Source: Chloroflexota bacterium
GTDB taxonomy: Bacteria > Chloroflexota > Dehalococcoidia > Tepidiformales > Tepidiformaceae
Length of the DNA stretch: 64,000 nt
Reading direction: 5' to 3'
NCBI GenBank assembly: GCA_026702615.1
Contig: JAPPBY010000014.1
Span: 1-64,000, forward strand
Below the pieces are notes generated by a model, which did no database searches, was not told the origin of the DNA, and saw only the letters and a list, made by a program, of their open reading frames with translations. This document shows positions 4,055-61,742 of this stretch, one piece after another (the first letter of the stretch is position 1; each line of letters begins with the position of its first letter). A program made the position numbers and the translations under genes.

Positions 4055-5483
4055 GACCACGGGCTTCATGGAATTCACGCGGGAGGGACCGCCCAGCCGC
4101 CCCGTGGCCGAGCGTGTCACCGACTGGCTCGAGTACTACGAGGAGATGCCGCCCAAGCAGCTCAACGAGCAGGCCGCCCGCTGCATGGACTGCGGCGTGC
4201 CCTTCTGCCACCAGGGCTGCCCCCTCGGAAACATCATTCCCGACTGGAACGACCTCGTGTATCGCGGCCACTGGCGCGACGCCATCGAGCGCCTCCACGC
4301 CACCAACAACTTCCCCGAGTTCACCGGTAGGCTCTGCCCCGCCCCCTGCGAGGCCGCCTGCGTCCTCGGCATCAACGACGACCCCGTTACCATCAAGCAG
4401 GTCGAGGTCAGCATCATCGAGCGCGCCTGGCGCGAGGGCTGGATCCGCCCTGAACCGCCGCAGCAGCGCACCGAGCGCCGCGTCGCCGTGATCGGCTCCG
4501 GCCCCGCCGGCCTCGCCGCCGCCCAGCAGCTGCGCCGCGCCGGCCACGACGTCACCGTCTTCGAGCGCGACGACCGCATCGGTGGCCTCCTCCGCTACGG
4601 CATCCCCGAGTTCAAGATGGAGAAGCGCTTCATCGACCGCCGCCTCGAGCAGATGGAGGCCGAGGGCGTCGTCTTCCGCCCCAGCGTCAACATCGGCGTC
4701 GACGTCGACGCCCGCGACCTCGTGAACGAGTTCGACGCGATCTGCCTGTCGGGTGGCGCGACCCACTCCCGCGACCTCCCCATCCCTGGCCGCGACCTCG
4801 ACGGCATCCACCTCGCGATGGACTTCCTCCCCCCGCAGAACAAGCTCGTCGCCGGCGACGACGTCCCCGAGAGCGAGGTCATCTCCGCCGCCGGCAAGCG
4901 CGTCATCATCCTCGGCGGCGGCGATACCGGCGCCGACTGTCTCGGCACCGTGCACCGTCACGGCGCCCTCAGCGTGAAGCAGTGGGAGCTCCTCCCCCGT
5001 CCCCCCGACACCCGCCCCCCAGAGACGCCCTGGCCCACCTGGCCGAACATCTTCCGCACCTCGGGCGCCCACCAGGAGGGCGGCGATCGCGACTACAGCA
5101 TCCTCACGAAGGAGTTCACCGGCGAGAACGGCCGCCTGACCGCCCTCCACGGCGTGCGCCTCGAGTGGGCCCCCGGCGAAGACGGCCGCATGCAGATGAC
5201 CGAGGTCCCCGGCTCCGAGTTCGTCGAGCCCGTCGACCTCGTGCTGCTCGCCCTCGGCTTCCTCGGCCCCGAGCGCCCGGGCATGCTCGAGCAGCTCGGC
5301 GTCGATCTGACCGACCGCGGCAACGTCGCCGCCGACGAGAACAAGATGACCAGCGTCCCCGGGATTTTCACCGCCGGCGACATGACGCGCGGCCAGTCCC
5401 TCATCGTCTGGGCTATCGCCGAAGGACGCGACGCCGCCCGTGGCATCGACCGCTACCTGATGGGCGAAACGTCCCTGCCATAG
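4047..5483 (+). CDS. gltD: Glutamate synthase small subunit
   Basis: Small subunit of glutamate synthase, a flavoprotein passing electrons from NADPH to GltB. The N-terminus carries the cysteines for two 4Fe-4S clusters ([17 protein letters not shown], then [12 protein letters not shown]). An FAD-binding GxGxxG ([15 protein letters not shown]) and a second nucleotide-binding motif ([14 protein letters not shown]) follow. The start is taken as GTG at 4047, giving the family-typical [10 protein letters not shown]; the purine-rich AGGTGGGGG lies just upstream. An in-frame ATG at 4011 would add twelve residues with no family match. The gene overlaps the end of gltB by 8 nt. Confidence 0.96.
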
Positions 5484-5530
5484 CAAGGGTGCCGCGCCCA
5501 CACGTCGGTTCTGTGCACGTTCTCAACTCG

Positions 5531-5570
5531 CCACCCTGAGCCTTAGCGCTGGCTCGCCGCCTCGGGGTGG
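5531..5570 (+). terminator. Long GC-rich hairpin after gltBD
   Basis: CCACCCTGAG (5531-5540) pairs with CTCGGGGTGG (5561-5570), ten pairs with one G-U. An inner AGCC/GGCT pairing shortens the loop. It lies 47 nt after the gltD stop and before the next promoter-like hexamer. There is no T-run, so it may act as a Rho-assisted or RNA-stabilising hairpin. Confidence 0.45.
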
Positions 5571-5603
5571 TCGGACTCTGGCATCCGCGATAGACTGTTT
5601 GGC

Positions 5604-5822
5604 ATGGCAACCTTGGACACGCACAAGGCAGTGAGGGAACTGACCGCCGCCGGAGCAGGCGAACCTCTGGCGGAGAAGATTGTTGGCGTGGTCGAGGAAG
5701 CCTCTGCCGACTTGGTGACGAAGGATTACTTCGACAAGCGGCTGGCTCAAACCGTTGCCGCAGGCACGGCCCTCGCCGTGACCGTCGCGGCCGCTGCTGT
5801 CGCGGTCGCCGAAGCTATCTAG
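5604..5822 (+). CDS. Small DUF1640-like protein with C-terminal membrane segment
   Basis: 72-residue protein. The first half (LDTHKAVRELTAAGAGEPLAEKIV) resembles the N-terminal helix-turn-helix of DUF1640/CCDC90-type proteins, which sense no known ligand and usually continue into a long coiled coil and one membrane helix. Here the coiled coil is nearly absent, and an Ala/Val-rich hydrophobic segment (about residues 50-70) ends the protein. There is no Shine-Dalgarno, but TAGACT sits 7 nt before the ATG, consistent with a leaderless transcript. Its function is unknown. The resemblance is by eye, so the family call is tentative; that the gene is real is more secure. Confidence 0.6.
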   Translation: MATLDTHKAVRELTAAGAGEPLAEKIVGVVEEASADLVTKDYFDKRLAQTVAAGTALAVTVAAAAVAVAEAI

Positions 5823-5832
5823 CCGCCCTTCC

Positions 5833-6855
5833 CTACCCAGCCCGCTCGATGAGATAGCGCGCGACCGCCGCGAGCAGGATGCGCTCGTCCTCGCTCAGGC
5901 CGAGGCTGTCGAGGAGGCTGCTCGCCTCATCGACATAACGACGTGCGTGCTCCTCCGCCACCGCCTTGATGCCGTCCGCCTCCAGCTGTGCGGAGACCGC
6001 CTCGATCTCCGCTGCCGGCGGCTCGTCGTGCGCGAACAGCCGCTCGATCGCCGTGCGCGTGCGTGGCTCCGCCAGTGCCGCGATGACGGGCAGCGTCTTC
6101 TTGTGCCGGGCGAGGTCGTTCTGGTTCGACTTGCCCGTCACGGAGGGGTCGCCCCAGATTCCGAGGATATCGTCCCGTACCTGGAACGCGAGCCCCACCT
6201 TGCGCCCCCAGTCGCGGATGCCGTCGCTCTGCTCCGTGGGCGCTCCGCTCAGGATGGCGCCCATCTGCAGCGGCGCCCCGATGAGCGCCCCCGTCTTCCC
6301 CTCCACCATCGCCAGGTAGTCCTCAACCGAGACGTCCTCGCGGGGCTCGAAGCTGAGGTCGTTCCACTGCCCCCCGATCATGTCGTCGGTCGCCGCCAGT
6401 AAGGCGTCGAGCGCGGCCACGCGCCGCTCGCTGGGCGCGTCCGACTCGGACAGCGCCCGCAGCGCGCGCGTCAGGAGGAAGTCGCCGACGTTGATCGCCT
6501 GCGCCTCGCCCACGATCCGCCAGATCGTCGGGCGGTGGTGGCGCTCCGCGTCGCGGTCCTGGATCTCGTCGTGGACGAGGGAGAAGTTGTGGATGAGCTC
6601 GACCGCCACCGCCCCCGGCATGGCCTCGGCCGCCGAGCCGCCCAGCGCCTCCGCCGCCAGCAGGCAGAGAGCCGGCCGGATGCGCTTTCCTCCGGTCGTC
6701 GCGGGCCGCCCCTCCTCGTCCTCCCAGCCCATGACATAACGAGCAGACGCCGCCAGCCCGCCCTCGTCCGCGCCGACGGCGGCGCGAAGGGCGTCCTCGA
6801 GCGCGTCGAGGTGGGCGGTCAACGCCGATGGAGGCGATGCTGCGGCGGTCGTCAT
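5833..6855 (-). CDS. Polyprenyl (geranylgeranyl/farnesyl-type) diphosphate synthase
   Basis: Trans-isoprenyl diphosphate synthase, condensing IPP with an allylic diphosphate to make C15-C20 (or longer) prenyl diphosphates. The first Asp-rich motif reads DEIQD in LVHDEIQDRDAERHHRPTIW, so the usual DDxxD has Glu at its second position. The second Asp-rich region is QVRDDILGIWGD. A GKRIRP motif near residue 55 binds diphosphate. At 340 residues it has normal family length. It starts 28 nt after the dxs stop on the same strand, so the two form a likely operon linking precursor supply to chain elongation. Product length cannot be read reliably from sequence. Confidence 0.93.
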   Translation of the reverse strand: MTTAAASPPSALTAHLDALEDALRAAVGADEGGLAASARYVMGWEDEEGRPATTGGKRIRPALCLLAAEALGGSAAEAMPGAVAVELIHNFSLVHDEIQDRDAERHHRPTIWRIVGEAQAINVGDFLLTRALRALSESDAPSERRVAALDALLAATDDMIGGQWNDLSFEPREDVSVEDYLAMVEGKTGALIGAPLQMGAILSGAPTEQSDGIRDWGRKVGLAFQVRDDILGIWGDPSVTGKSNQNDLARHKKTLPVIAALAEPRTRTAIERLFAHDEPPAAEIEAVSAQLEADGIKAVAEEHARRYVDEASSLLDSLGLSEDERILLAAVARYLIERAG

Positions 6856-10861: not shown

Positions 10862-10958
10862 GGCCTCCCCCTTGCGATCGTCTTGATCCTAGCCTAGGTC
10901 AAGGGCGGGACCGCAAGGTAAAGGTTCGGGGAGAGTGGATGCGGGTGCCGCCGACCGA

Positions 10959-10982
10959 GAGTGTATCACCTGTGATACACTC
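10959..10982. promoter_or_regulatory. Perfect 24-bp palindromic operator of the VapBC-like module
   Basis: GAGTGTATCAC (10959-10969), a 2-nt spacer, then GTGATACACTC (10972-10982): 11-nt arms with no mismatch. The right arm contains a TACACT -10-like hexamer (10976-10981) placed 7 nt before the antitoxin ATG, so binding would block RNA polymerase. Autorepression by an antitoxin-toxin complex at such a site is typical of the family. Confidence 0.8.
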
Positions 10983-10988
10983 CGCCTC

Positions 10989-11225
10989 ATGGACACCGTA
11001 ACGATCCGCGAGCTTCGCAACCGTGGCCGCGCTGTCATCGATCGCGTGGAGGCGGGTGAGTCCCTCATCGTTAGCCGGGACGGGCGGCCGGTTGCTGAGC
11101 TGCGTCCGCTGCCGCGCAAGCCGCTTGACGCCGCTACCCTGCTTGAACAGTGGCGGCACGTTCCGCCAGCAGATCCGGACGCGTGGCGGCGTGACGTCGA
11201 CAGCGTGGTCGACCAGTCGCTGTGA
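10989..11225 (+). CDS. Phd/YefM-family antitoxin
   Basis: 78-residue antitoxin. The N-terminal half (MDTVTIRELRNRGRAVIDRVEAGESLIVSRDGRPVAEL, taken in parts) is a Phd/YefM DNA-binding fold; the C-terminal part would wrap the toxin. The start is placed at ATG 10989 rather than the upstream in-frame ATG at 10935, because the upstream option would translate through the operator palindrome. A TACACT hexamer lies 7 nt before this ATG, suggesting a leaderless message. The stop overlaps the toxin GTG by 4 nt (GTGA), as expected for a co-translated pair. Confidence 0.9.
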   Translation: MDTVTIRELRNRGRAVIDRVEAGESLIVSRDGRPVAELRPLPRKPLDAATLLEQWRHVPPADPDAWRRDVDSVVDQSL

Positions 11226-11647
11226 CGTCAACGGGCGGTTCCGCGGGCCTTCTCGATACGAACCTTGTCATCCTCCTCCCGCGGATCATCGATCATGGCC
11301 CGTTGCCCGGGGCGCCACTCATTTCGACGATTACGCTCGCTGAGCTGTCGGTGGGGCCTTTGCTCGCCTCCTCAGCGGGCGAGCGGGCTGAGCGCCAGGC
11401 CACCCTCCAGCAGGCCGAGGCGCTATTCGACCCGCTTCCGTTTGACGTGAATGCGGCGAGAGCGTACGCGCGTGTCTCTTCCGACCTCCGCAGGGCGGGG
11501 CGCAAGCCCATGGCGCGTGCGTTCGATGCCCTCATCGCGTCTGTCGCCATCGCCAACGGCCTTCCCCTCTACACCGCAAACCCTGCGGACTTCATGGGGA
11601 TCACCGACCTGCAGGTCGTGCCTGTGCCACATCCAGACCACTCCTGA
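11222..11647 (+). CDS. PIN-domain toxin (VapC-like)
   Basis: 141-residue PIN-domain ribonuclease, the presumed toxin of the upstream antitoxin. PIN acidic residues are visible in LLDTNLVI (Asp), TLAELSVG (Glu), and the paired Asp region RAFDALIASVAIANGLPLYTANPADF. The GTG start overlaps the antitoxin stop. Family members cleave tRNA or rRNA; the target here is unknown. The nearest gene on either side is unrelated, so this is a self-contained module. Confidence 0.9.
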   Translation: MTSTGGSAGLLDTNLVILLPRIIDHGPLPGAPLISTITLAELSVGPLLASSAGERAERQATLQQAEALFDPLPFDVNAARAYARVSSDLRRAGRKPMARAFDALIASVAIANGLPLYTANPADFMGITDLQVVPVPHPDHS

Positions 11648-16307: not shown

Positions 16308-17459
16308 CTAGCCGGCCTTCTCCGCGATGAGCGCGTCCAGCTCGACCTTGAGCCGTCCCAGCACCTCGTCGTACGGGTAGGCGCCGAGCTCTTCCTCGCC
16401 CCGCTTCAGGTTCACGAAGGTGGGCGCGCACCAGAGCCCCAGGTCCGCGTCGTCCGTCTCCCCGGGACCGTTCACGCGGCAGCCCATGACCGCAATCGTT
16501 ATGTCGTGCTCTTTCGCGTAGGTGGTCATCTCCTTGACGTCCTGCGCCAGCTCGATGAACGCCTCGTTCTCCACACGACTGCAGCTCGGGCAGCTGATGA
16601 TGTTCAGCCCCCCATCGAGGAACTCCGGAACCGATCGGAACCGCCCCGCCTCGATGTCGTCCAGGATCGACTTCCCCGCCTCCACCTCGCGCCACTTCTC
16701 CGCGAACGGCAGCGTCAGGGACACGCGGATCGTGTCTCCCACGCCCTGGCTCAGGAGCTGCTCGAAGGCGATGCGCGTCTTGATCACGCCTTCCGGCGGC
16801 ATGCCCGCCTCCGTGACGCCCAGGTGCAGCGGGATCTCCGGTCGCGCTTCCGCGAATCGCTTGTTGCCCGCGATCACCTTGCGTGGGTCGCTGTCCTTCA
16901 TCGAAACCACGAACCGCGTGAACCCGATGTCGTCGAGCATCTGCGCGTGTTCGAGTGCGCTCTCGACCATCGCCGTCACGCCCTCGAGGCCGGGCTCGTC
17001 CGCACCCTCGTACTTTTCGTCCATGGCCGGGTCCACCGACCCGCAGTTCACGCCTACGCGAATCGCGCAGTCGTGCTTCTCCGCTGTCTCCGCGATGAAC
17101 GCGACCTTCTCCGCCACCGGCTTCGACTTCTCGTGGTGGTACAGGTGGCCGGGGTTGTAGCGAACCTTGTCGACATGCGGCGCGACCTGCGTCACGAGCC
17201 GGTAGCTCTCCTGCAGGTCGACGACGAAGTTGGCCTCGGGAACCGCCTCCCGCACCTGCCCCAGGCACTCGACGTCCTTGCGGCTGTCGACGGCGACGCG
17301 CACGAGCCCGGCGCCGGCCTCGTGGATCATCCGTACCTGGTCGATCGTGGCCTCGACGTTCTGCGTCTTCGTCGCCGCCATCGACTGCACGACGACTGGC
17401 GCCCCGCCGCCAATGGTGATCGAACCCGCCTTCACGGCACGCGTTTCTGCTCGCTTCAT
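16308..17459 (-). CDS. ispG: 4-hydroxy-3-methylbut-2-enyl diphosphate synthase (flavodoxin/ferredoxin type)
   Basis: Iron-sulfur enzyme reducing MEcPP to HMBPP, the penultimate MEP-pathway step. The N-terminal TIM barrel begins at [24 protein letters not shown]; the cluster ligands are in [14 protein letters not shown] and [11 protein letters not shown]. The start is placed at ATG 17459 ([12 protein letters not shown]), matching family N-termini; the frame stays open upstream but that stretch is Arg/Pro-rich and not conserved in character. At 383 residues it has normal length. The copper operon lies upstream on the same strand, and its last codons define the ancestral junction interrupted by the insert. 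Confidence 0.96.
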
Positions 17460-17511
17460 GCTGGGGAGTGTAGCCCGACTGCCGTGAACGGCGATAGGAG
17501 GCCGCTTACCC

Positions 17512-17527
17512 CCACCACGACCGCTCG
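17512..17527. repeat. Left 16-bp direct repeat (att-like)
   Basis: Copy next to ispG. It reads as the relic 3' end of copA on the minus strand (ERSWWG-stop). Its right end plus the first insert bases form a palindrome, CGACCG-CT-CGGTCG (17518-17531), that the other copy lacks. Confidence 0.8.
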
Positions 17528-17544
17528 GTCGCGGCCCACTCTTT

Positions 17545-18543
17545 CTACCTCGATCTGGATGAGTAGATCTGCGGTTCAGCAACGAAGGCGAGTAGGCGCT
17601 CCCGTGCAGCAAGCCCCGCGTCCGGCCCGCTGTTCTGCTTGACCGCGGAGACAAACTCCCCTGAGCTAATCACGCATGCCACGCTGGCGTGCTCCCACAG
17701 AGCCGCACGGCGACTCGCGCCAACACCGTTGACGATGAAGCGTACGTTGGGTACTAGGCTCGCAAACTCGTCGAACTCCCCGAGCAAGTCCTCCCAGGCC
17801 CTGCCATGCGGGACGGTCTGCCAGTCCATCCACATGAGATTGATGGAGGGGTTCTGCTGTACCGCTCTTGCGAGGTCGTACATGTCTGCTCGCCGGAACC
17901 ATCCGGCAGGAGGGACGGTCGGCACACCAGCTGCAGCGAACACCGTGGCGAAGCGGTCGCAGCGGACCAGCTGCACGCGGTTGTGGAAGGCCGAGTGATC
18001 GTTCCAGATGGAGAAGGCCGGGCTAAGGACCAGGTCATATCCTGCCATTGCGACTGTCGCTACGGTTTCGCGCCAACTCCTCCCCAGCCTCGCGAGATCC
18101 TCGTCCTTCCCGGTCATCACGAGCATGACCTTCGTTCCACGGGCAAGACCGGCACGTTCAATGAACTTCTCTTTGGAGAGGGGGTGCCGCTTGCTGCGAC
18201 CTACAACTTCGGTCAGCGTTGCCGCTACCCATCCCATCCCCTCCGTCGCGATCCCAGCAGCCGGCTGCGCAGCAACTCGTGCGACGGCTCTCGGCAGGCG
18301 TTGCGTAGCGAAATGCCCTTCTGCCCTATGGGTGAGATCGCCGAGTTGCCGAACACATGCCGCCGCCTCCGGCGTGCATGGCTGGATGTCGCCTTCGGGC
18401 GCCTGGATCCAAGCACACTGGCGGCTCGTCCCGCGGAGGTCGCAGCCAACGCGCAAAGGGCACGAGCCGCACAGGTCGCTGAACAGAATCAGCTGATGGC
18501 TGTCAGCGATTGGCGACCCGTGCGAGTTGGACGGCTGGCCCAT
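17545..18543 (-). CDS. Cysteine-rich protein with DUF4417-like C-terminal domain (insert cargo)
   Basis: 332 residues, function unknown. An N-terminal cysteine cluster (C25-x2-C28-x5-C34-x8-C43-x12-C56) looks like a metal or Fe-S site. The C-terminal part has features reminiscent of DUF4417: [46 protein letters not shown] and FIVNGVGA, suggestive of a TIM-barrel-like strand order. The start ATG 18543 has GGAGGAGGCGGGAG just upstream and overlaps the preceding gene by 41 nt. The stop lies 17 nt from the left repeat. The family is seen in phages and mobile DNA; this match is by eye only. Confidence 0.6.
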
Positions 18544-18856
18544 CTCCCGCCTCCTCCACAACCACGCCAACGTATGGGTCCAAACCAAGGCAGCGCTGCT
18601 GATGCACGTTGAGTTCGACCAAGCGCCCTACGGTGCCGAACCCTGCGTGCTCAGCCACAAAGTCCCCATTAGGACGTTGTTCAATCAGGACTGGGTCACC
18701 GACGATCTCAGCCAAGAGATCGGAACCCAGCAGCCGCGCGACGAACTCGTCGGCACCGTAGGTATCTGCTCCACTCGGTTCTGCTGGCGCGGGAAAGGGT
18801 TCCTCTCCCATCGGGGGGACCACTGCGCTTGGCCTGCGCTTCGAATGCCTGCCCAC
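18503..18856 (-). CDS. Hypothetical protein (first gene of the insert)
   Basis: 117 residues of unknown function. The N-terminus is basic (GRHSKRR) and Pro-rich; the rest alternates beta-like segments (DPVLIEQRPNGDFVAEHAGFGTVG, VGVVVEEAG) and could be a small beta-barrel. The start is GTG with AAGGAGGT 6 nt upstream, the strongest ribosome site in this stretch. It overlaps the downstream cysteine-rich gene by 41 nt, so the two are likely co-translated and functionally linked. No homologue is recognised. Confidence 0.6.
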   Translation of the reverse strand: MGRHSKRRPSAVVPPMGEEPFPAPAEPSGADTYGADEFVARLLGSDLLAEIVGDPVLIEQRPNGDFVAEHAGFGTVGRLVELNVHQQRCLGLDPYVGVVVEEAGDGPAVQLARVANR

Positions 18857-18967
18857 AAAGGACCTCCTTGTCCCTTGGGCCGGTTCCCCGCGCCCGGTGG
18901 AGCTTGTATGCTCCCCGACGCGCGGCCGACCACTTGCTATTTCTGGCTGGCGGTCATGTCTGCGTTT

Positions 18968-18998
18968 GAAGAGGCGGCGTCACTAGCGCCGCCTCTTC
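18968..18998. other. Perfect 12-bp inverted repeat in the insert leader
   Basis: GAAGAGGCGGCG (18968-18979), a 7-nt loop, then CGCCGCCTCTTC (18987-18998). It lies in the 316-nt gene-free part of the insert (18857-19172), upstream of the first cargo gene. It could be a terminator for transcription from copA, or a recombinase/replication hairpin. A 12-nt palindrome TCGAGTACTCGA follows near 19012. Nothing else is evident in this stretch. Confidence 0.55.
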
Positions 18999-19166
18999 AC
19001 GTTACTTGGTTCGAGTACTCGAGCTACGGCACCTCTCTAGTTGCGTTCGGTTCCCGACACTTGCCCGATGAGCCAAGCGTCAGCGATCCCTAGTTTAAGT
19101 CATCTCGCGACGTTCTGGGATGGGTGCTCAAGCGCATCAACATTAAATCCTTAGCGTTTCATGGTA

Positions 19167-21497
19167 TTATGTCCACCACGACCGCTCGATGCCCGTGAAC
19201 GCGACGAACGGCGCCAGCAGCACGACCACAATCGACGCCAGCGCCAGCAGCGGACCCCGGTTCATCGACGTGAACCGCTCACGCGGGCCCTCGTAGGCGC
19301 CGCCACTCGCCTCGACGATGCGGCGGCGCTGTGTGCGCAGCCTCAGGCTGTTCGCCATCACGCTCACCGAGCTCAGCGCCATCGCACCGCCCGCCACGAT
19401 CGGGTTCAGGAGGCCCGCCATAGCGATCGGAATGGCGATGACGTTGTAGCCGAAGGCCCAGCCGAGGTTCTGCCGGATCGTCCGCAGCGTCGCCCGGCTC
19501 AGCAGGATCGCTTCCGCGATCTTCGCGATGTCGCCGTGCAGGAGCGTGACGTCGCTCGCCTCGATGGCGGCGTCGGCCCCCGTGCTCATCGCGATGCTCA
19601 CGTCTGCCTGCGCGAGCGCGGCCGCGTCGTTGATGCCGTCGCCCGCCACCGCCACGCGCAGCCCTTGCGCTTGCAGCTCCCGCACGAGCGCCAGCTTCTC
19701 CTCCGGACGCAGCCCCGCGCGCACCTCCTCGATGCCGAGCGCTCGGGCGGCGGCAAACGCACTACGCTCGTTGTCGCCCGTCGCCATGATGGTGCGCACC
19801 CCCAGCGACCGCAGCGTCGCGACCGACTGCGCCGCGTTTTCCTTCGGCGGGTCCGCGAACGCAAGCGTCCCCGCGTACGCCCCGTCGACTGCGACCAGGG
19901 CGGTCGTGCGCCCCTCCGCCTCCAGCCGCGCCAGCGTGCCCTCCGCCTCCCCTCCCAGTGCGACGCCGCGTTCCTCGAACAGCCGCCGCGTCCCGATGAG
20001 GATCGTCCGCCCGTCGACCTCTCCCCTCAGCCCCGCCCCCGGCAGCGCCTCGAAGCCGTCGGCGGCGGCCAGCGCGAGCCCGCGCCCCTCCGCCGCCTCC
20101 ACGACGGCCGCGCTCAGCGGATGCTCGCTCAGCGCCTCGACCGTCGCCGCCAGCGCCAGCACCTCCTCCTCGCTGAAGCCCGACCCCACGGCCAACTCGA
20201 CCAGCTCCGGCCGCCCCTCCGTGAGGGTGCCCGTCTTGTCGAGCACGACCGCGTCGATCCGTGTGGCCGTCTCTAGCGCCTCCGCGTTCCGGATCAGGAT
20301 GCCGCGCTCCGCCCCCATCCCCGTCCCCGCGATGATCGCGGTAGGTGTCGCCAGGCCGAGGGCGCACGGACAGGCGATGACCAGCACCGCCACCGAGAAC
20401 ACCATCGCCCGCACGAATGAGTCGTCGAGCAAGCCCCAGCCGAGGAACGTCCCCAGCGCCAGGACCAGCACGATCGGCACGAACACCGCCGCCACCGCGT
20501 CCACCACTCGCTCGACGGGCGCCCGCGACCCCTGCGCCTCCGCCACCAGCGCCGCCATGCGCTGCAGAACCGTGTCCTCCCCCACCGCCGTCGCCTCCAC
20601 CTCGATCACGCCGTGCTGGTTAAGCGCGCCCCCCACGACCGCCTCCCCGGGCCCCCGCTCGACCGGCATCGACTCGCCCGTGAGCAGCGACTCGTCGAGC
20701 GCGCTGCGGCCTGCCCGGATCACGCCGTCGAGCGCGACCCGCTCGCCGGGCCGCACCCGGAACACGTCCGCCACCGCCACCGTTTCGACCGGTACGGCCT
20801 CCTCCTCCCCCTCGCGCAGCACGTTGACCGACTTCGCTGTCAGACCCAGCAGCGCTCGGATGGCCCCGCCCGCGCTCGCCCGCGCCCGGTCCTCGAAGAA
20901 CCGCCCCAGGCTGACGAACAACAGCACAGCCGCGCTCACGTCGAAGAACATCGCCTCGCTGCGGTCGGCCAGCACCACCCAGGCGCTGAACACGAATGCC
21001 ACTGTCGTGCCCAGCGCGACCAGGACATCCATGTTCGGCGTCAGCGCCCGCAGCGCCGGCCAGGAGGCGCGGTAGAACCGCCACCCGAGCAGCCCTTGCA
21101 CGATTGCCGCCCCGCCCAACAACAGCCACCCCGTGACCGGCTCGCTCCCGAACAGCGCCAGGCCGGCGATGTCCATCGCCATGCTCGCGATGATCACCGG
21201 CACCGCGAGCACGCCGCCGGCCGCCAGCATCAGCAGGCGCGCCCTGGCGTCCTCGTCCGGCGCTTCGGCGCCGGCCTCGAGTTCGGCGGCGTCGTACCCC
21301 GCGCGCTCGACGGCGGCCACGAGCTGGTCCGCCTCAATGGCGTCGCCCAGCGAGACCCGCGCCGTAGCGGAGGCGAAGTTCACGCTCGCCTCGTCAACGC
21401 CCTCGACGCGGTTCAGTGCGCGCTCGACGCGGCGCACGCAGGAAGCGCACGTCATCCCCCCGATTCGCAGGGTGACGGCGTGATCGGGACTGGTCAT
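19167..21497 (-). CDS. copA: Copper-exporting P1B-type ATPase
   Basis: 776-residue heavy-metal ATPase exporting Cu(I). It has an N-terminal HMA domain with GMTCASC, several membrane helices, the TGES actuator loop (LLTGESMPV), the metal-selective CPC in IACPCALGLATPTA, the phosphorylated Asp in DKTGTLTEG, an HP motif (SEHPLSAAV) and GDGINDAAAL. The helix-8 Met/Ser region (MALSSVSVMANSLRL) matches CopA. The stop lies in foreign sequence: the last residue is encoded by an insert bounded by direct repeats, so the C-terminus differs from the ancestral form only at its last residue. The start overlaps copZ by 4 nt. Confidence 0.95.
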   Translation of the reverse strand: MTSPDHAVTLRIGGMTCASCVRRVERALNRVEGVDEASVNFASATARVSLGDAIEADQLVAAVERAGYDAAELEAGAEAPDEDARARLLMLAAGGVLAVPVIIASMAMDIAGLALFGSEPVTGWLLLGGAAIVQGLLGWRFYRASWPALRALTPNMDVLVALGTTVAFVFSAWVVLADRSEAMFFDVSAAVLLFVSLGRFFEDRARASAGGAIRALLGLTAKSVNVLREGEEEAVPVETVAVADVFRVRPGERVALDGVIRAGRSALDESLLTGESMPVERGPGEAVVGGALNQHGVIEVEATAVGEDTVLQRMAALVAEAQGSRAPVERVVDAVAAVFVPIVLVLALGTFLGWGLLDDSFVRAMVFSVAVLVIACPCALGLATPTAIIAGTGMGAERGILIRNAEALETATRIDAVVLDKTGTLTEGRPELVELAVGSGFSEEEVLALAATVEALSEHPLSAAVVEAAEGRGLALAAADGFEALPGAGLRGEVDGRTILIGTRRLFEERGVALGGEAEGTLARLEAEGRTTALVAVDGAYAGTLAFADPPKENAAQSVATLRSLGVRTIMATGDNERSAFAAARALGIEEVRAGLRPEEKLALVRELQAQGLRVAVAGDGINDAAALAQADVSIAMSTGADAAIEASDVTLLHGDIAKIAEAILLSRATLRTIRQNLGWAFGYNVIAIPIAMAGLLNPIVAGGAMALSSVSVMANSLRLRTQRRRIVEASGGAYEGPRERFTSMNRGPLLALASIVVVLLAPFVAFTGIERSWWT
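19173..19188. repeat. Right 16-bp direct repeat (att-like), within copA
   Basis: Copy of the 16-mer inside the coding 3' end of copA; it encodes ERSWW on the minus strand. The next insert bases give Thr and a TAA stop in place of the relic Gly and TAA. Confidence 0.8.
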
Positions 21498-33084: not shown

Positions 33085-33102
33085 CCTAACGCTTCGGTTA
33101 GG
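33085..33102. terminator. Small hairpin between dnaG and the HAD gene
   Basis: CCTAAC, loop GCTTCG, GTTAGG: a perfect 6-bp stem followed by GTTTGG. It lies between convergent stops (overlapping the HAD stop) and could end transcription in both directions. Confidence 0.45.
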
Positions 33103-33862
33103 GTTTGGCGCCACCGTTACCGGTCAGGAGCGAGGCCAACTCCGACAGGGAGGCGATTTCGAGGTCGGGCTTCGCGTCGGCTTCCCGGCGGGGAGCCCCT
33201 GTCCGGTTGATCCAGACAGCCGTGAGCCCCGCGGCCCGCGCTCCCGCCACGTCCGTCGCGAGGTTGTCGCCCACGTGCCAGGCGTCATCGTTCCCCACGG
33301 CCAGCCCCCTGAGGACGTGCTCGAAGATCCGTGGGTCGGGCTTTGCGACGCCAACTTCCCCGGAGATCGCCACCGCGTCGAACCAGTGGTCGATACCCAG
33401 GGCGCCGAGCTTGGAGCGCTGCAGGTCCGTGGGACCGTTGGTTATGAGCGCGAGTGGCAGCCCCGCTTCCCTCGCTGCCTCAAGGAACTCGCGGGCGTCC
33501 TCGAACAGGCGATAGCCGGCTTCCGCCAGCCGGTAGTGCAGCGCTGCCGCGCGCTGTGCGACCGCCTCGTCGGTGCAGCCGCAAGCTGACAGCGCCCGGC
33601 GCCAGGCTTCGAGCGTGAAGGAGGCTGCGTTGAGATCGCCCCCATCCCACTTGCTCTCCACCTCGGCCCCGTAGTTCGTGACGACCGTGTGGTAGGTCCC
33701 GATGAGCCGGGTGCCGGACATCCCCGGCTGACTCCCGGCAATCGCCTGTGAGGTGAGCGCGATGGCGTCGTTGTGGACGCCGTCGTTGTTGAGCAGCGTT
33801 TCGTCCAGGTCCAGGCACAGCGCCCGAGGCGGAGGCAGGGAATCGGGAGGGCGAACCGTCAT
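33098..33862 (-). CDS. HAD-superfamily hydrolase
   Basis: 254-residue phosphatase-type HAD protein. Motif I is CLDLDETLLNN (nucleophile and acid Asp), motif II LALITNGPTD, the Lys of motif III is in GVAKPDPRIFEHVL, and motif IV is WHVGDNLATDVAGARAAG. A helical cap (about residues 30-115) places it in subfamily I with YjjG/REG-2-like enzymes. Substrates in this group include nucleotides and small sugar phosphates, so no specific one is assigned. It is convergent with dnaG and follows no operon partner. Confidence 0.88.
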   Translation of the reverse strand: MTVRPPDSLPPPRALCLDLDETLLNNDGVHNDAIALTSQAIAGSQPGMSGTRLIGTYHTVVTNYGAEVESKWDGGDLNAASFTLEAWRRALSACGCTDEAVAQRAAALHYRLAEAGYRLFEDAREFLEAAREAGLPLALITNGPTDLQRSKLGALGIDHWFDAVAISGEVGVAKPDPRIFEHVLRGLAVGNDDAWHVGDNLATDVAGARAAGLTAVWINRTGAPRREADAKPDLEIASLSELASLLTGNGGAKP

Positions 33863-33910
33863 CAGAACACGACGGTAGCACGATACCCGTGAGTGGGACC
33901 GTCGCTTCAG

Positions 33911-35116
33911 CTAGGGATTGAGGTCGCCCGTCGCTGGCCCCCGAGCGCCCGCTAAGGCGAACCCAAGCACGCCCAGCGACTCCCGCAGCGTCCCCGCCCC
34001 ATTCCCCCCACCCAGGACGCGGCCCGCGGCCGCATCGAGCACGTCCAGCGCGCGCGGCGAGTCAAGGTCGTCGTCCATCGCCGCCTCGAAGGCCGCCCGC
34101 AGTCCCTCGTCCGCCTCGCCGTCCTCCCCTCGCCCGCACGCGTCACGCAGCCGCGCGTAGCGTTCCCCGAGCGCCTCGATCGCGCCCTCGCGGTAGTCGG
34201 CGTCCGTGCGGTAGTGCTCGCTGAGCAGGTAGAGGCGCAGGTGATCCGGGTCGTAGCGCTCCATCAGGTGGCGCGCCAGCACGAGGTTCCCCAGCGACTT
34301 GCTCATCTTCACGCCGTCCAGCTTGAGCATGCCGTTGTGCATCCAGAATCCGCAGAACGGCGCCTTCCCCGTTGCGCTCTCCGCCTGCGCGATCTCGTTC
34401 TCGTGGTGGGGGAAGATGAGGTCGCTCCCGCCCCCGTGGATGTCGATCTGGTCCCCGAGGTGCCCCCGCGACATCGCCGTGCACTCGATGCTCCAGCCCG
34501 GGCGACCGTCGCACCAGGGGCTCGGCCAGCTCGGCTCGTCCGGCTCGCAGCGCTGCCAGAGGAGGAAGTCGAGCGGCCCCCGCTTCTTCTCTTCGCGCTT
34601 CGATTCGGGGTTCTCCCGTTTCGCCAGCTCCTCGATCGCGATGCCGTTCAGCTGCCCGTAGCCCGGGAAACGCTGCGCCTCGAAGAACACGTCCCCGTCC
34701 GCCTCGTAGGCCGCCCCCGACGCGATCAGCGCTTTCGTCGTCTCGATGATCGCGTCGATGTGGTCCGTCGCGAACGGGTAGGCCGTCGGCCGCAGCACGT
34801 TCAGGCGGTCCAGGTCGGCCCGGAAGATGGCGTCGTTCTCGTCCCGGATCTCCGCGATCGGCCGTCCGCCCTCGCGTTTCGAGACCATGATCATGTCGTC
34901 GTCGATGTCGGTCACGTTCTGCACGTAGCGCACGTTCAGACCCTTCCAGGTCAGGTAGCGCCGCAGCACGTCGAAGTTCACGTAGGAGAAGGCGTGCCCG
35001 AGGTGCGTCACGTCGTAGGGCGTGACCCCGCAGACGTAGATGCGCGCCTCGCCGGGCACGATCGGGACGAACTCGCGCTTGGCGCGTCCCAGCGAGGAGT
35101 ACAGGTGTAGGGTCAC
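33911..35116 (-). CDS. cysS: Cysteinyl-tRNA synthetase, short form
   Basis: Class I synthetase charging tRNA-Cys. Catalytic motifs are intact: HLGH signature (YDVTHLGHAFSYV), KMSKS (GVKMSKSLGN), and zinc ligands in YVCGVTPYD, IECTAM and PHHENE. The domain after KMSKS is brief, and the protein is only 401 residues against roughly 450-490 usual, so the anticodon-binding end is reduced. The CGVTPYD-THLGHA stretch resembles MshC (mycothiol ligase), while the body (HGGGSDLIFPHHENEIAQAES) is CysS-like. It should be cysS unless another copy exists elsewhere. The start is GTG 35116. Confidence 0.85.
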   Translation of the reverse strand: MTLHLYSSLGRAKREFVPIVPGEARIYVCGVTPYDVTHLGHAFSYVNFDVLRRYLTWKGLNVRYVQNVTDIDDDMIMVSKREGGRPIAEIRDENDAIFRADLDRLNVLRPTAYPFATDHIDAIIETTKALIASGAAYEADGDVFFEAQRFPGYGQLNGIAIEELAKRENPESKREEKKRGPLDFLLWQRCEPDEPSWPSPWCDGRPGWSIECTAMSRGHLGDQIDIHGGGSDLIFPHHENEIAQAESATGKAPFCGFWMHNGMLKLDGVKMSKSLGNLVLARHLMERYDPDHLRLYLLSEHYRTDADYREGAIEALGERYARLRDACGRGEDGEADEGLRAAFEAAMDDDLDSPRALDVLDAAAGRVLGGGNGAGTLRESLGVLGFALAGARGPATGDLNP

Positions 35117-43751: not shown

Positions 43752-46309
43752 TCCCCCGCCGCCTGCGCCTCCGCAACTTCCTCTCCTACCGCGATTGCGA
43801 GCTCGACTTCTCCCCGCTCCACCTCGCCACGCTCGCCGGCAAGAACGGCGACGGCAAGTCCGCGCTGCTCGATGCCATCACCTGGGCCCTCTGGGGCGAG
43901 GCCCGCGGCCGCGTGGAGGACGACCGCATCCGTCATGGCGCCGACGACATGCGCGTCGAGCTCGACTTCGAGGTCGATAGCGACCGCTACCGCGTCCTGC
44001 GCAAGCGCACACGAGGCCGCTCCGGCGCCCTCGATTTCTTCCAGGTCGATAGCCAGGGCGGCCTGCGCCCCATCACCGGCGGCACGTCCCGCGAGACCCA
44101 GACTGAGCTGAACCGTCGCGTCCACATGGACCACCAGACATTCATCAATAGCGTGTTCCTCGTCCAGGGCCGCTCGAACGAGTTCACCACGCAAACCCCT
44201 TCGAAGCGCAAAGAGGTGCTCCGCAAGGTGCTCGGCCTCGACCGCTACGAGGAGCTCTCCCGCCACGCCCACGAGCGCCGCCGCACCGCCGAGGCCGACG
44301 CTGCTATCGAAGAACGCCTCATCGGCGACGATGAGGAGCGTTTGGCGGAGGCGCCGGCAATCGGGGAGAAGCTCGAAGCCGTCGCGTGCGAACGAAAGGA
44401 CGTTCGCCTCCGCCTCGAAGCCGAGGAGACCGGGGCGGAGGAGCTGCGCCTCGCCGCCGCTGAGCACCAGCGCCGTGAGCGCGCTGTCGCGGACGCCGGG
44501 GACCGGCTTGCTTCCCGCGACCAGGCCGTGGAGCGCCGCACCGAAGCCATCGCCGTACTCGAATGCGACCTCGAGACGGTTCGTGAAACGCTCACCCATG
44601 CCCCCCGGATTGAGGAGGCATACGGCCAGCTCCAGCAGGCTCGCGATGAGGAGCGCACGTTTGCGGACCTCGCTTCAGAGGCCCGGAGCCTTGAGGACAC
44701 CATCGCCACCGCCGACAGCGAGATCGCGCAGGAGCGCAGGGGCCTGGAGACAACCATCGGTGGCCTCTCCGAGCAGCACGAGCGAGCGCTCGCGCTCGTC
44801 GCGACGCTCCCCGCCCTTCGCGAGGAGGAGTCGGGACTGGATCGGGAACGAGCGCGCCTCAAGCAGCTCGATGCCGACATCCAGGGCGAACGGGACGCGG
44901 CCACGGAGGCCCAGCGTCTGCAGGCCGAGCGTTCCCACGAGGCCGGGGGCTACAAGGCTCGTGCCCAAGACCTCAAGGATCGCGAGACGACCCTCGCCGA
45001 GGCCGAGGGCAAACCCCTCTGTCCCGTCTGTCGCAAGCCCCTGGCCCCGGACGAGCTGCACGCAACGGTCGAGCAGTACCGGCAGGAACGCCGCCAGCTC
45101 GGCGAGCAGTACGACGCCGCTCAGTCCGCTGTTGATGACGCGAAGGCTGCCGCGGGGCAACACCAGCAGCGGGCCACCGACCTCCAGCGTGAACGCGTGG
45201 ACCTCGATGATCGGGTCCGTTCATGCGCGCAGGCGCTGGCCGGACGCCTGACCGAAGCGGGAAACGCCGAGAGCGGCCTCCCCGATCTCGCCGCCCAGCT
45301 CGCCACCCTCAGCCAGACCGTCGAGACCGAAGCCTTCGCCCCCGAAGCCCGCGAACGTCGCTCCGCCGCCTGCAACCAGCTCGGCGCCCTCGGCTACGAC
45401 CGCGAGCGCCACGCCGGCGCCCGCCGGCGGGTCGCCGAGCTGCAGCCGGCTGAAGCCGACTACAACGCGCTCACCGAGGCGAAAGCGCGTGCAGAGGGCC
45501 TCGGCGACCGCATCAGGGAAGCCCGCGAGGAGCTGCGCCGCGAGAACGAGGAGCTCACCGAGGCCCGGCAGGCCCTTGCCGAGGCTCGCACCGAGCTGGA
45601 CGCCTCCCAGGACGTGTCCGCCCGCCTCGCCGCCGTGGAAGACGCCGTCGCCGAGTGCCGCGACCGCCTCACGACCCTCGACAAGGAGCACGGCCGCCTG
45701 GAGGAGCGTCGCGACGCCCTCCAGGAGCTCGCCGCGCGCGTCGAGGAGGCGAAGGACCGCCTCGCCGCCGCCCGCGATGCCGCCCAGCTCCACGAAGACC
45801 TCGCGAAAGCGTTCGGGCGCGACGGCGTCCAGGCCATGCTCATCGAGCAGTCCCTGCCCGAGCTCGAACGCATCGCCAACGGCCTCCTCGACCAGCTGAC
45901 CGAGGGGCGCGGGCGCACCCAGGTCTCCCTCCGCACCCAGCGCGAGAGCGCCTCCGGCAAAACCGTCGAGACCCTCGACATCCACATCAGCGACGACCTG
46001 GGAACGCGCGACTACGAGATGTACAGCGGCGGCGAGAAGTTCCGGGTCGATTTCGCCCTGCGTATCGCACTCTCCCGCCTCCTCGCGATGCGCTCCGGCG
46101 CCTCCCTCCCGACGCTCATTATCGATGAGGGCTTCGGCACCCAGGACGAGGAAGGCCGCGACCGCCTCGTGGCCGCGATCAACGCCATCAGCTCCGAGTT
46201 CCGCCTCATCCTCCTCGTCACCCACATCGAGGAGCTGCGCGAGAGCTTCGGCCGCCGCATCGAGGTCACGAAAGACCCGGAGCGCGGTTCACTGGCGGTC
46301 GTTCGCTAA
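43748..46309 (+). CDS. SbcC/Rad50-type ATPase with zinc hook
   Basis: 853-residue SMC-like ATPase that tethers DNA ends and drives SbcD cleavage. Walker A GKNGDGKS lies at residues 31-38; the Q-loop region is SVFLVQGRSNEF. Two long Ala/Glu/Arg coiled-coil arms surround the zinc hook CPVC near residue 424. The ABC signature (YSGGEKFRVDFALRIALSRL) and Walker B (TLIIDEGFGTQDEEG) lie near the C-terminus. The GTG start overlaps the preceding nuclease by 4 nt. Total length is slightly below E. coli SbcC, owing to shorter arms. Confidence 0.95.
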   Translation: MIPRRLRLRNFLSYRDCELDFSPLHLATLAGKNGDGKSALLDAITWALWGEARGRVEDDRIRHGADDMRVELDFEVDSDRYRVLRKRTRGRSGALDFFQVDSQGGLRPITGGTSRETQTELNRRVHMDHQTFINSVFLVQGRSNEFTTQTPSKRKEVLRKVLGLDRYEELSRHAHERRRTAEADAAIEERLIGDDEERLAEAPAIGEKLEAVACERKDVRLRLEAEETGAEELRLAAAEHQRRERAVADAGDRLASRDQAVERRTEAIAVLECDLETVRETLTHAPRIEEAYGQLQQARDEERTFADLASEARSLEDTIATADSEIAQERRGLETTIGGLSEQHERALALVATLPALREEESGLDRERARLKQLDADIQGERDAATEAQRLQAERSHEAGGYKARAQDLKDRETTLAEAEGKPLCPVCRKPLAPDELHATVEQYRQERRQLGEQYDAAQSAVDDAKAAAGQHQQRATDLQRERVDLDDRVRSCAQALAGRLTEAGNAESGLPDLAAQLATLSQTVETEAFAPEARERRSAACNQLGALGYDRERHAGARRRVAELQPAEADYNALTEAKARAEGLGDRIREAREELRRENEELTEARQALAEARTELDASQDVSARLAAVEDAVAECRDRLTTLDKEHGRLEERRDALQELAARVEEAKDRLAAARDAAQLHEDLAKAFGRDGVQAMLIEQSLPELERIANGLLDQLTEGRGRTQVSLRTQRESASGKTVETLDIHISDDLGTRDYEMYSGGEKFRVDFALRIALSRLLAMRSGASLPTLIIDEGFGTQDEEGRDRLVAAINAISSEFRLILLVTHIEELRESFGRRIEVTKDPERGSLAVVR

Positions 46310-46315
46310 GGCTGG

Positions 46316-46612
46316 CTAGGCGCTCTTTGCAGCGGCAGCCTGTCGAGCGAGGGCGAGTTGATAGCGACCCTCCAGCCCGATCCAGAGGTGTGCCGGTATC
46401 CCCAGTGCACCCTCAAGCTGAAGTGCCGTCTCCGCGGTGATCGCCTTCTTGCCATGGACGATCGCGCTGATTACCTGCCGAGGTCGCCCCATCTGCTGCG
46501 CAAGCTCACTCTGAGTCAGGCCACGAACCTCTAGCTCCTCCGCCAGAAGTTCACCGGGGGGAATCGCAAGGTCGGAATGCAGAGCAGTCACCGTGCTAGT
46601 CATGGTAGTCAA
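46316..46612 (-). CDS. HigA-type XRE antitoxin
   Basis: 98-residue helix-turn-helix protein (PPGELLAEELEVRGLTQSELAQQMGRPRQVISAIVHGKKAITAETALQLEGALG), the HigA/VapI type. It neutralises the toxin encoded just upstream and represses the shared promoter. It overlaps the toxin gene by 17 nt and lies second, the order typical of higBA. An alternative start is the ATG three codons on. Confidence 0.9.
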   Translation of the reverse strand: MTTMTSTVTALHSDLAIPPGELLAEELEVRGLTQSELAQQMGRPRQVISAIVHGKKAITAETALQLEGALGIPAHLWIGLEGRYQLALARQAAAAKSA

Positions 46613-46889
46613 CTACCTCCTCAATCGTGACGCTGGTCTCACTGTCGAACGAAACGATGAGCCGGACCTGGCCCGTCAGACGCAAGGCGTGTTGCCCCCG
46701 ACGATCTCCAGCCAGCGGATGGAGGCCAAAGGCTCGCACCTGCTGGACTTCGGAACGCTGCCCGGATTCCAGCAGGGCATCGACTCGTTGGACGAAGCGT
46801 CGCCCTACTTGCGGGCCCCACTCCCGAATCGCCCGACTTGAGTCTCGGTAGCAACGCTCCAGCCTCCGCGTGCGGAAGGAGACCTGCAC
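46596..46889 (-). CDS. HigB/RelE-type mRNA-interferase toxin
   Basis: 97-residue RelE-fold toxin (RLERCYRDSSRAIREWGPQVGRRFVQRVDALL ... RAFGLHPLAGDRRGQHALRLTGQVRLIVSF ... VTIEEVVDYHD). The short loops and the ending VVDYHD match HigB. The GTG start has no ribosome site but TAAGCT lies 6 nt before it (46901-46896 on the minus strand), suggesting leaderless transcription. Toxin first, antitoxin second. Confidence 0.88.
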   Translation of the reverse strand: MQVSFRTRRLERCYRDSSRAIREWGPQVGRRFVQRVDALLESGQRSEVQQVRAFGLHPLAGDRRGQHALRLTGQVRLIVSFDSETSVTIEEVVDYHD

Positions 46890-46944
46890 GACGGTAGCTT
46901 ATCACTGACACACTGACGCTGCCTGCCGAGGACTTGCCCTGCCG

Positions 46945-60813: not shown

Positions 60814-61017
60814 CTCACGCCCCTTTCGCACGGTGCCGTATTCAGTTGCTCGGATCGAGTGTTTCGCAATCGTACTCGGCTCGTCAAGGCACTACAGCGT
60901 ATGAATTCGAGGATGCAATTCGCACAACTAGTCCTGCAATATGTGAAAAGAATCACCGGTCCAGTTCGTGAAAAGAAGTACAGCAGACTGCCTACGAGGA
61001 CGTTGTAGCCGGCGCCG

Positions 61018-61047
61018 TTGACACTGGCAAGCCTTACGCCCCATGCT
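61018..61047 (+). promoter_or_regulatory. Candidate promoter of the RHH/PIN module
   Basis: Perfect TTGACA (61018-61023), 18-nt spacer and a weak CATGCT (61042-61047), about 30 nt before the antitoxin ATG. The -35 is the only exact consensus match noticed in the window. Confidence 0.4.
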
Positions 61048-61077
61048 GGGTAGGACTGAGTAAGATGAGAGGTCGCG

Positions 61078-61335
61078 ATGCCACGCTCGACAAGGACGAT
61101 CACCTTCTCCCTCTCTCCCGACCTGATGGAACGAGTAGACGAGGCAACCAGGAGCGAGGGGCGCTCACGCAGCGAACTGCTGCGGGAAGCGGTACTCCGC
61201 TACCTCGAGGAGTGCGAGTGGCGCAGCCTTCTCACCTACGGCGAACAGCGGGCGAGGGAACAGGGGCTCGGTCCCGAGGACGTTGGTCCCCTGGTCGAGG
61301 AATACCGGACCGAAGCTAGCCCCACGCGCTCGTGA
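61078..61335 (+). CDS. Ribbon-helix-helix antitoxin (CopG type)
   Basis: 85 residues. The N-terminal strand and two helices (RTITFSLSPDLMERVDEATRSEGRSRSELLREAVLRYLEE) make a MetJ/Arc-type DNA-binding dimer; the acidic C-terminus (GPEDVGPLVEEYRTE) would bind the toxin. Its stop region overlaps the PIN gene by 4 nt. GAGAGG lies upstream as a ribosome site. Confidence 0.9.
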   Translation: MPRSTRTITFSLSPDLMERVDEATRSEGRSRSELLREAVLRYLEECEWRSLLTYGEQRAREQGLGPEDVGPLVEEYRTEASPTRS

Positions 61336-61742
61336 GGGCTGTCCTCGATACCAACGTCATCATCTCCACCCTGAACTTTCCCGGGAACGAGCGCCTTGTC
61401 CTTGACCTCGCCCGCCGGAAGCGCTTCGACCTGTTCCTCTCCCCCTTCATCCTGCGGGAAGTTAGCGGCGTCCTCACCCGCAAATTCGGCTGGGATGGCG
61501 AGCGGGTTACGCAGGCCCTCTCGATGCTGCGAGCGACCGCGAACGTGATCGAACCGCAACGGAGCCTGGCCGTTATCGAGGGGGACCATGCCGACAACCG
61601 CATCCTTGAGTGCGCCCTGGCCGCTTCCGCCGACTACCTCGTAACCGGGGACCGCCGGCACCTCCTGCCGCTGGGCGAGCACAGGGGCACGACTATCGTC
61701 AACGCACCCCAGTTCCTCACCCGCCTCGAGCGGGACGCCTAG
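61332..61742 (+). CDS. PIN-domain toxin (COG1569-type)
   Basis: 136 residues. It opens VLDTNVIISTLNFPGNE (first PIN Asp), followed by FILREVSGVLTRKF (Glu) and DHADNRILECALAASADYLVTGDRRHLLPL (two Asp), the pattern of putative toxin PINs of COG1569. The start is GTG, overlapping the antitoxin by 4 nt. This is a different PIN subgroup from the VapC-like gene at 11 kb. Confidence 0.9.
   Translation: MRAVLDTNVIISTLNFPGNERLVLDLARRKRFDLFLSPFILREVSGVLTRKFGWDGERVTQALSMLRATANVIEPQRSLAVIEGDHADNRILECALAASADYLVTGDRRHLLPLGEHRGTTIVNAPQFLTRLERDA

Follow-up and report, generated by a model that had tools for sequence, protein, structure and literature searches.

The 3' ends of genes are classic targets for integration. 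A precedent also exists for horizontal gene transfer concentrated in hotspots that lack mobility genes (Oliveira et al. 2017, PMC5635113), and how single genes enter between core genes without mobile machinery is a question that hotspot surveys leave open. The locus described here lies in a stretch of 64,000 nucleotides from a Chloroflexota bacterium of the family Tepidiformaceae (positions 1 to 64,000 of contig JAPPBY010000014.1, assembly GCA_026702615.1; hereafter the window), in which a two-gene insert, orfB-orfA, occupies the junction between the copper ATPase gene copA and ispG. The genome holding the window is termed G000 and the other genomes of the genus G001 to G008, giving nine in all. 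Their junctions provide a clean record of the site before and after insertion, with an empty state, three different fillings and exact joins, for the gain of single genes without mobile machinery. It is probable, if well short of certain, that the insert is a recombinase-less cargo module composed of a distant DUF4417 protein and a small partner, which the host's recombination brought into a 3'-end hotspot.

The insert is bounded by two exact copies of CCACCACGACCGCTCG, which has no third copy in the 2.87-Mb (2,871,702-base) genome even when one mismatch is allowed, and thus is not a common chromosomal word. Among 600 random pairs of positions on the same contig the longest chance repeat is 11 bp (99th percentile 9), compared with 16 bp here. 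On the minus strand the sequence reads ERSWWT-stop (ACA TAA) at the copA side and ERSWWG-stop (GGG TAA) at the ispG side. The features of the junction are:

16308-17459, minus strand: ispG (gcpE), the downstream host gene, Pfam GcpE
17512-17527, minus strand: 16-bp repeat, ispG side, a remnant of the ancestral copA end (ERSWW) with GGG TAA after it and the relic stop at 17506-17508; matches the empty-site junction of the relatives
17512-19172, no strand: inserted segment of 1661 bp, one copy of the repeat counted in, with a 16-bp overlap when compared with the empty G001, G003 and G006
19167-19172, minus strand: final codon (ACA) and stop (TAA) of copA, supplied by the insert
19173-19188, minus strand: 16-bp repeat, copA side, the last codons of the present copA
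19167-21497, minus strand: copA, P-type copper ATPase, the upstream host gene, Pfam E1-E2_ATPase, HMA and Hydrolase

In five relatives (G001, G003, G006, G007 and G008) the copA-ispG spacer is empty and measures 50-53 bp; by the gene calls used it is 46 bp in three genomes and 593, 1707 and 2022 bp in others. Even in G008, the most divergent comparable genome (71% identity in copA), the site is empty, while in G005 copA is not adjacent to ispG within the stretch that was read. The empty sites read WWG-stop, or WWT-stop in G008, and then pass into the ispG promoter region. Since the end of copA is followed directly by this region in the empty genomes, the site was empty ancestrally and has gained an insert in the window, and since most of the empty relatives have WWG-stop at this position, it is the ispG-side copy that carries the ancestral end of copA. 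A preliminary description of this DNA, made from its letters only, had proposed that an insertion split the tail of copA, left a 16-bp direct repeat and kept the ancestral ERSWW tail readable on the ispG side, all of which is borne out by the comparison with the relatives, which do not all share one spacer. The lower G+C content that it reported for the interior also holds (62% as against about 65-70% in the flanking genes), as do its overlap between the two genes (41 nt) and the lack of a recombinase; its description of both genes as small does not suit orfA, which encodes about 330 aa.

Of the eight genus genomes in which the site can be read, three (G000, G002 and G004) have it filled, each by a different insert, within the same ~25 bp at the end of copA. 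The G002 insert is 0.55 kb long, carries one YccF-type gene, is bounded by an 8-bp repeat, GGGTAAGC, and joins a few bases further on. The G004 insert (JAPPAK010000007.1, Chloroflexi bacterium IRC1_bin_31) is 2.0 kb long and holds an extra gene (orf1) next to orfB and orfA, with a repeat of about 3 bp at most. At a single site the repeat therefore varies by insert from 16 bp (G000) to 8 bp (G002) and about 3 bp (G004). At the left join of the G000 insert a copied foreign copA end was considered, as ACATAATACC resembles ACTTAAACC of G008; this match is too short to be given weight and may equally be promoter-like.

The inserts of G000 and G004 share only a core that runs from a hairpin to the end of orfA. 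Its parts in G000 are:

17545-18543, minus strand: orfA, about 332 aa from the ATG at 18541-18543, with an N-terminal CxxC...C...C cluster; distant DUF4417-type
18503-18856, minus strand: orfB, 117 aa, GTG start, Shine-Dalgarno sequence AAGGAGGT at 18862-18869; overlaps orfA
18857-18965, minus strand: leader from the hairpin to orfB, from the G000/G004 alignment, with blocks such as GGGAACCGGCCC kept in G004
18967-18999, minus strand: hairpin with a perfect 13-bp stem, terminator-like, without a T run

The orfA product is 47% identical to its G004 homologue at the same junction and that of orfB 35-37%, while the DNA flanking the two inserts is about 93-94% identical. The left arms and right ends of the two inserts are unrelated, with alignment scores within those of shuffled sequences, and a relic of the G004 orf1 in the left arm of G000 was rejected as it scores below the shuffles. 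The hairpin is one of only two perfect hairpins with arms of at least 11 bp in the 157-kb contig; in G004 a hairpin with an 11-bp stem and a different sequence stands in the same place. When G000 and G004 are compared, the leader is better conserved than would be expected from the proteins. Its folding z-score is -3.6 in G000 and -1.1 in G004, a search against Rfam returns nothing above chance, and it is possibly a regulatory RNA or an operator.

The differing joins and repeat lengths at the one site, together with the unrelated ends of the G000 and G004 inserts, count against an element bounded by the action of a recombinase. The preliminary description had favoured a mobilisable mini-element bounded by attachment sites, or a decayed tyrosine-recombinase element, which is hard to reconcile with a G004 insert that has no such repeat and with the different 8-bp repeat in G002. 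Only two tyrosine recombinases are encoded in G000, both unlinked to the insert, and because counterparts of similar length are present in all nine genus genomes they are XerC/D-like; no phage-type tyrosine integrase is found in G000. Pfam, NCBIfam, PHROG and PADLOC give no recombinase match and no toxin or antitoxin match for orfB or orfA. A tRNA target was rejected, the single tRNA in the window being far from the insert, and so was a phage or plasmid origin, as the viral contigs, phages and plasmids searched yielded no relative of orfA.

The copA insert is one of many, since similar gene-sized inserts occupy many further gene 3' ends within the genus. The hotspot statistics are drawn from pairwise comparison of about 100-200 kb per genome in six genomes, with gene calls made by third-position divergence. 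The compared stretches contain 48 gene-sized inserts, and 14 of 157 core-gene junctions (~200 kb) are variable, namely 7 of 34 convergent, 7 of 93 co-directional and 0 of 30 divergent junctions (convergent versus the rest, Fisher p=0.014). Two or more alternative contents are present at no fewer than nine junctions, against 1.9 expected by simulation. In view of this breadth, and because most inserts have no repeat above chance, the end of copA does not stand out as a target. Taken over all 48 inserts, the join repeats do not exceed chance lengths significantly (p=0.08). No recombinase, integrase or transposase is encoded by the copA inserts or by 20 other insert ORFs scanned. Among these 20 there are 12 matches of toxin-antitoxin type, counted per protein and in several cases below the Pfam curated cut-off (six PIN, HigB-like, HTH and CcdA-like partners, HicB-like, two ParE and Fic); the remainder include a HAD hydrolase, an aspartyl protease, RCC1, a histidine kinase, DUF1295 and DUF1801. 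The kind of event is ordinary, and it is the set of gene 3'-end hotspots that is unusually active.

Within the window, further gene-sized inserts at gene 3' ends are seen at 5484-5825, 10950-11645, 46309-46934 and 61009-61740. Toxin-antitoxin genes of PIN-domain and HigBA type are among their contents, and in relatives several of these junctions are differently filled.

As the simplest explanation, it is proposed that orfB-orfA was inserted at the copA stop codon, with the spacer acting as a hotspot of gene turnover. DNA would have entered from relatives and been joined by the host's own recombination, one side by homology and the other by illegitimate or Ku-type joining, and the insert would then have spread through homologous exchange of the flanking core genes. 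If the far end of the insert joined at least 16 bp upstream of the stop and the near end joined after the last codons of copA, the tail would be duplicated with no integrase involved, and the outcome would be 16 duplicated base pairs with copA and the ispG promoter both kept. ComEC and Ku are each encoded in the same eight of the nine genus genomes, so that DNA uptake and end joining are plausible in the genus.

Several observations weigh against this proposal. The divergence of the flanks near the copA-ispG junction is not visibly altered or raised in the few pairs compared. Over the 48 inserts the exact 16-bp repeat of the copA insert is the longest and the only exact one above the null, which makes it resemble an attachment core or a target duplication. 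Only two close relatives of orfA were found anywhere (G000 and G004), both at the end of copA, as would fit a site preference. Finally, G000 encodes four full-length large serine recombinases (of five matches); none of them is linked to the insert, but they could supply the activity in trans.

The last point bears on the notion of a non-autonomous integrative element, in which a recombinase supplied in trans, either a large serine recombinase or Xer, would integrate a circle with a 16-bp core at the copA 3' end and restore the frame. The core does lie within the last codons of copA, with frame and stop restored, most relatives encode several serine recombinases as well, and in both G000 (L112, G000:C34, about 4837-6411) and G004 a large serine recombinase gene sits directly at the dnaN 3' end. 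Integration by a trans-acting recombinase is therefore possible, given an exact repeat and the presence of serine recombinases, but a homologous insert in the same place in G004 lacks the core and has different ends, no other copy of the core is present in the genome, and neither a phage-type tyrosine integrase nor a recombinase gene linked to the insert is available. On balance this is an unlikely origin.

Slightly less likely is a single old insertion of orfB-orfA in the ancestor of the genus, lost in most species and either fast-diverging or swapped with a divergent pool of alleles, with the repeat arising from a secondary rearrangement. G000 and G004 agree in the two genes, their order and orientation, the hairpin and leader and the junction that they occupy, and homologous cargo that is over-diverged relative to its surroundings also occurs elsewhere, as with the PIN proteins at two junctions and the dnaN-adjacent serine recombinase (about 70% nucleotide identity between G000 and G004, with flanks at 93%). 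Set against this are the gap between the 47% identity of orfA and that of the flanks, the lack of homology between the ends of the two inserts and the empty site in the outgroup G008, and the explanation is regarded as doubtful.

The imperfect repeats at two other inserts bear on a further idea. The Fic-gene insert of G004 has a repeat matching at 18 of 22 positions, and the 0.8-kb HAD-hydrolase insert of G000 (33090-33920) has an 18-bp repeat matching at 14 of 18 (33090-33107 and 33903-33920); each spans a neighbouring stop codon. The junction of the latter is empty in G006, holds an insert of similar length in G004 and an aspartyl protease insert in G002. Both may be decayed examples of the outcome seen at copA. 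That recombinase-less modules of one or two genes would, in this Chloroflexota genus, enter at stop codons by a dedicated, unrecognised process duplicating 16-22 bp of the tail of the host gene, with copA the freshest case and the 18- and 22-bp repeats decayed ones, is given little credence.

Transposition by an unknown transposase with a 16-bp target duplication is very improbable: an exact direct repeat does surround an insert of transposon-like size, but a transposase is lacking, the inverted repeats reported include none at the termini of the insert, and the duplication has no constant length at this site, the orfB-orfA insert of G004 already being without one of fixed length. An assembly artefact can be dismissed almost entirely, for although the G000 assembly is unfinished (38 contigs) the insert lies inside the 157-kb contig, the usual assemblers are not misled by a repeat as short as 16 bp, and the independent assembly of G004 has a homologous insert at the same junction.

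The orfB-orfA pair is uncharacterised, with relatives beside defence genes or in mobile islands. The orfA product has no direct match in Pfam, NCBIfam, PHROG or PADLOC, and is placed near DUF4417 (PF14386) through a 23% identical homologue, P0004 (G024), with a weak PF14386 match (E=2.7e-4, 20.9 bits) below the curated cut-off of 28.9. The neighbours of DUF4417-type homologues, other than BrxL named by eye from the sequence, comprise BREX genes (G024), type I restriction and HTH/ImmA genes (G051) and HTH/ImmA genes (G644), while in G463, G610 and G408 the homologues lie in islands of TraG/ParB type. In other Chloroflexota families DUF4417-type genes likewise seem to lie in mobile islands, where TraG-like, ParB-like, AAA and amidoligase-like genes accompany them in conserved order (L104, L105 and L106), and it has been reported (PMC12704722) that DUF4417 is fused to ParB-CTPase mainly in phages and prophages. 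Profile comparison does not support a homology between orfB and the small ORFs found upstream in G024, G152 and G644, so that outside G000 and G004 the conserved pair is only positional. The AlphaFold model (predicted local distance difference test score, pLDDT, 43) is too poor for a structure search, and no relative of solved structure was found. To judge by the neighbours of the homologues and the kind of cargo in the sister hotspots, orfB-orfA probably has a selfish or defence-like function.

Like solitary chromosomal toxin-antitoxin modules, orfB-orfA forms a compact intergenic cargo of two overlapping genes, and PIN, HigBA, HicB, ParE or Fic genes occur in many of the hotspots nearby; unlike such modules it matches no toxin or antitoxin family, and orfA is large for a toxin. 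With the integrative elements of tyrosine or large serine recombinases that use gene 3' ends it has in common a target in the last codons, a restored stop and a direct repeat, whereas it lacks a recombinase, conserved ends and a core in its sister insert. The closest parallel is to the hotspots described by Oliveira et al. (2017): as there, content turns over fast between core genes, with several alternatives at one spot, and the inserts scanned here encode neither an integrase nor a transposase. In the few pairs compared, divergence near the junction does not visibly reflect the raised homologous recombination of their flanks. In place of their long islands this genus has inserts of one or two genes, located mainly at the 3' ends of genes, one of them with an exact 16-bp duplication of the host gene tail.

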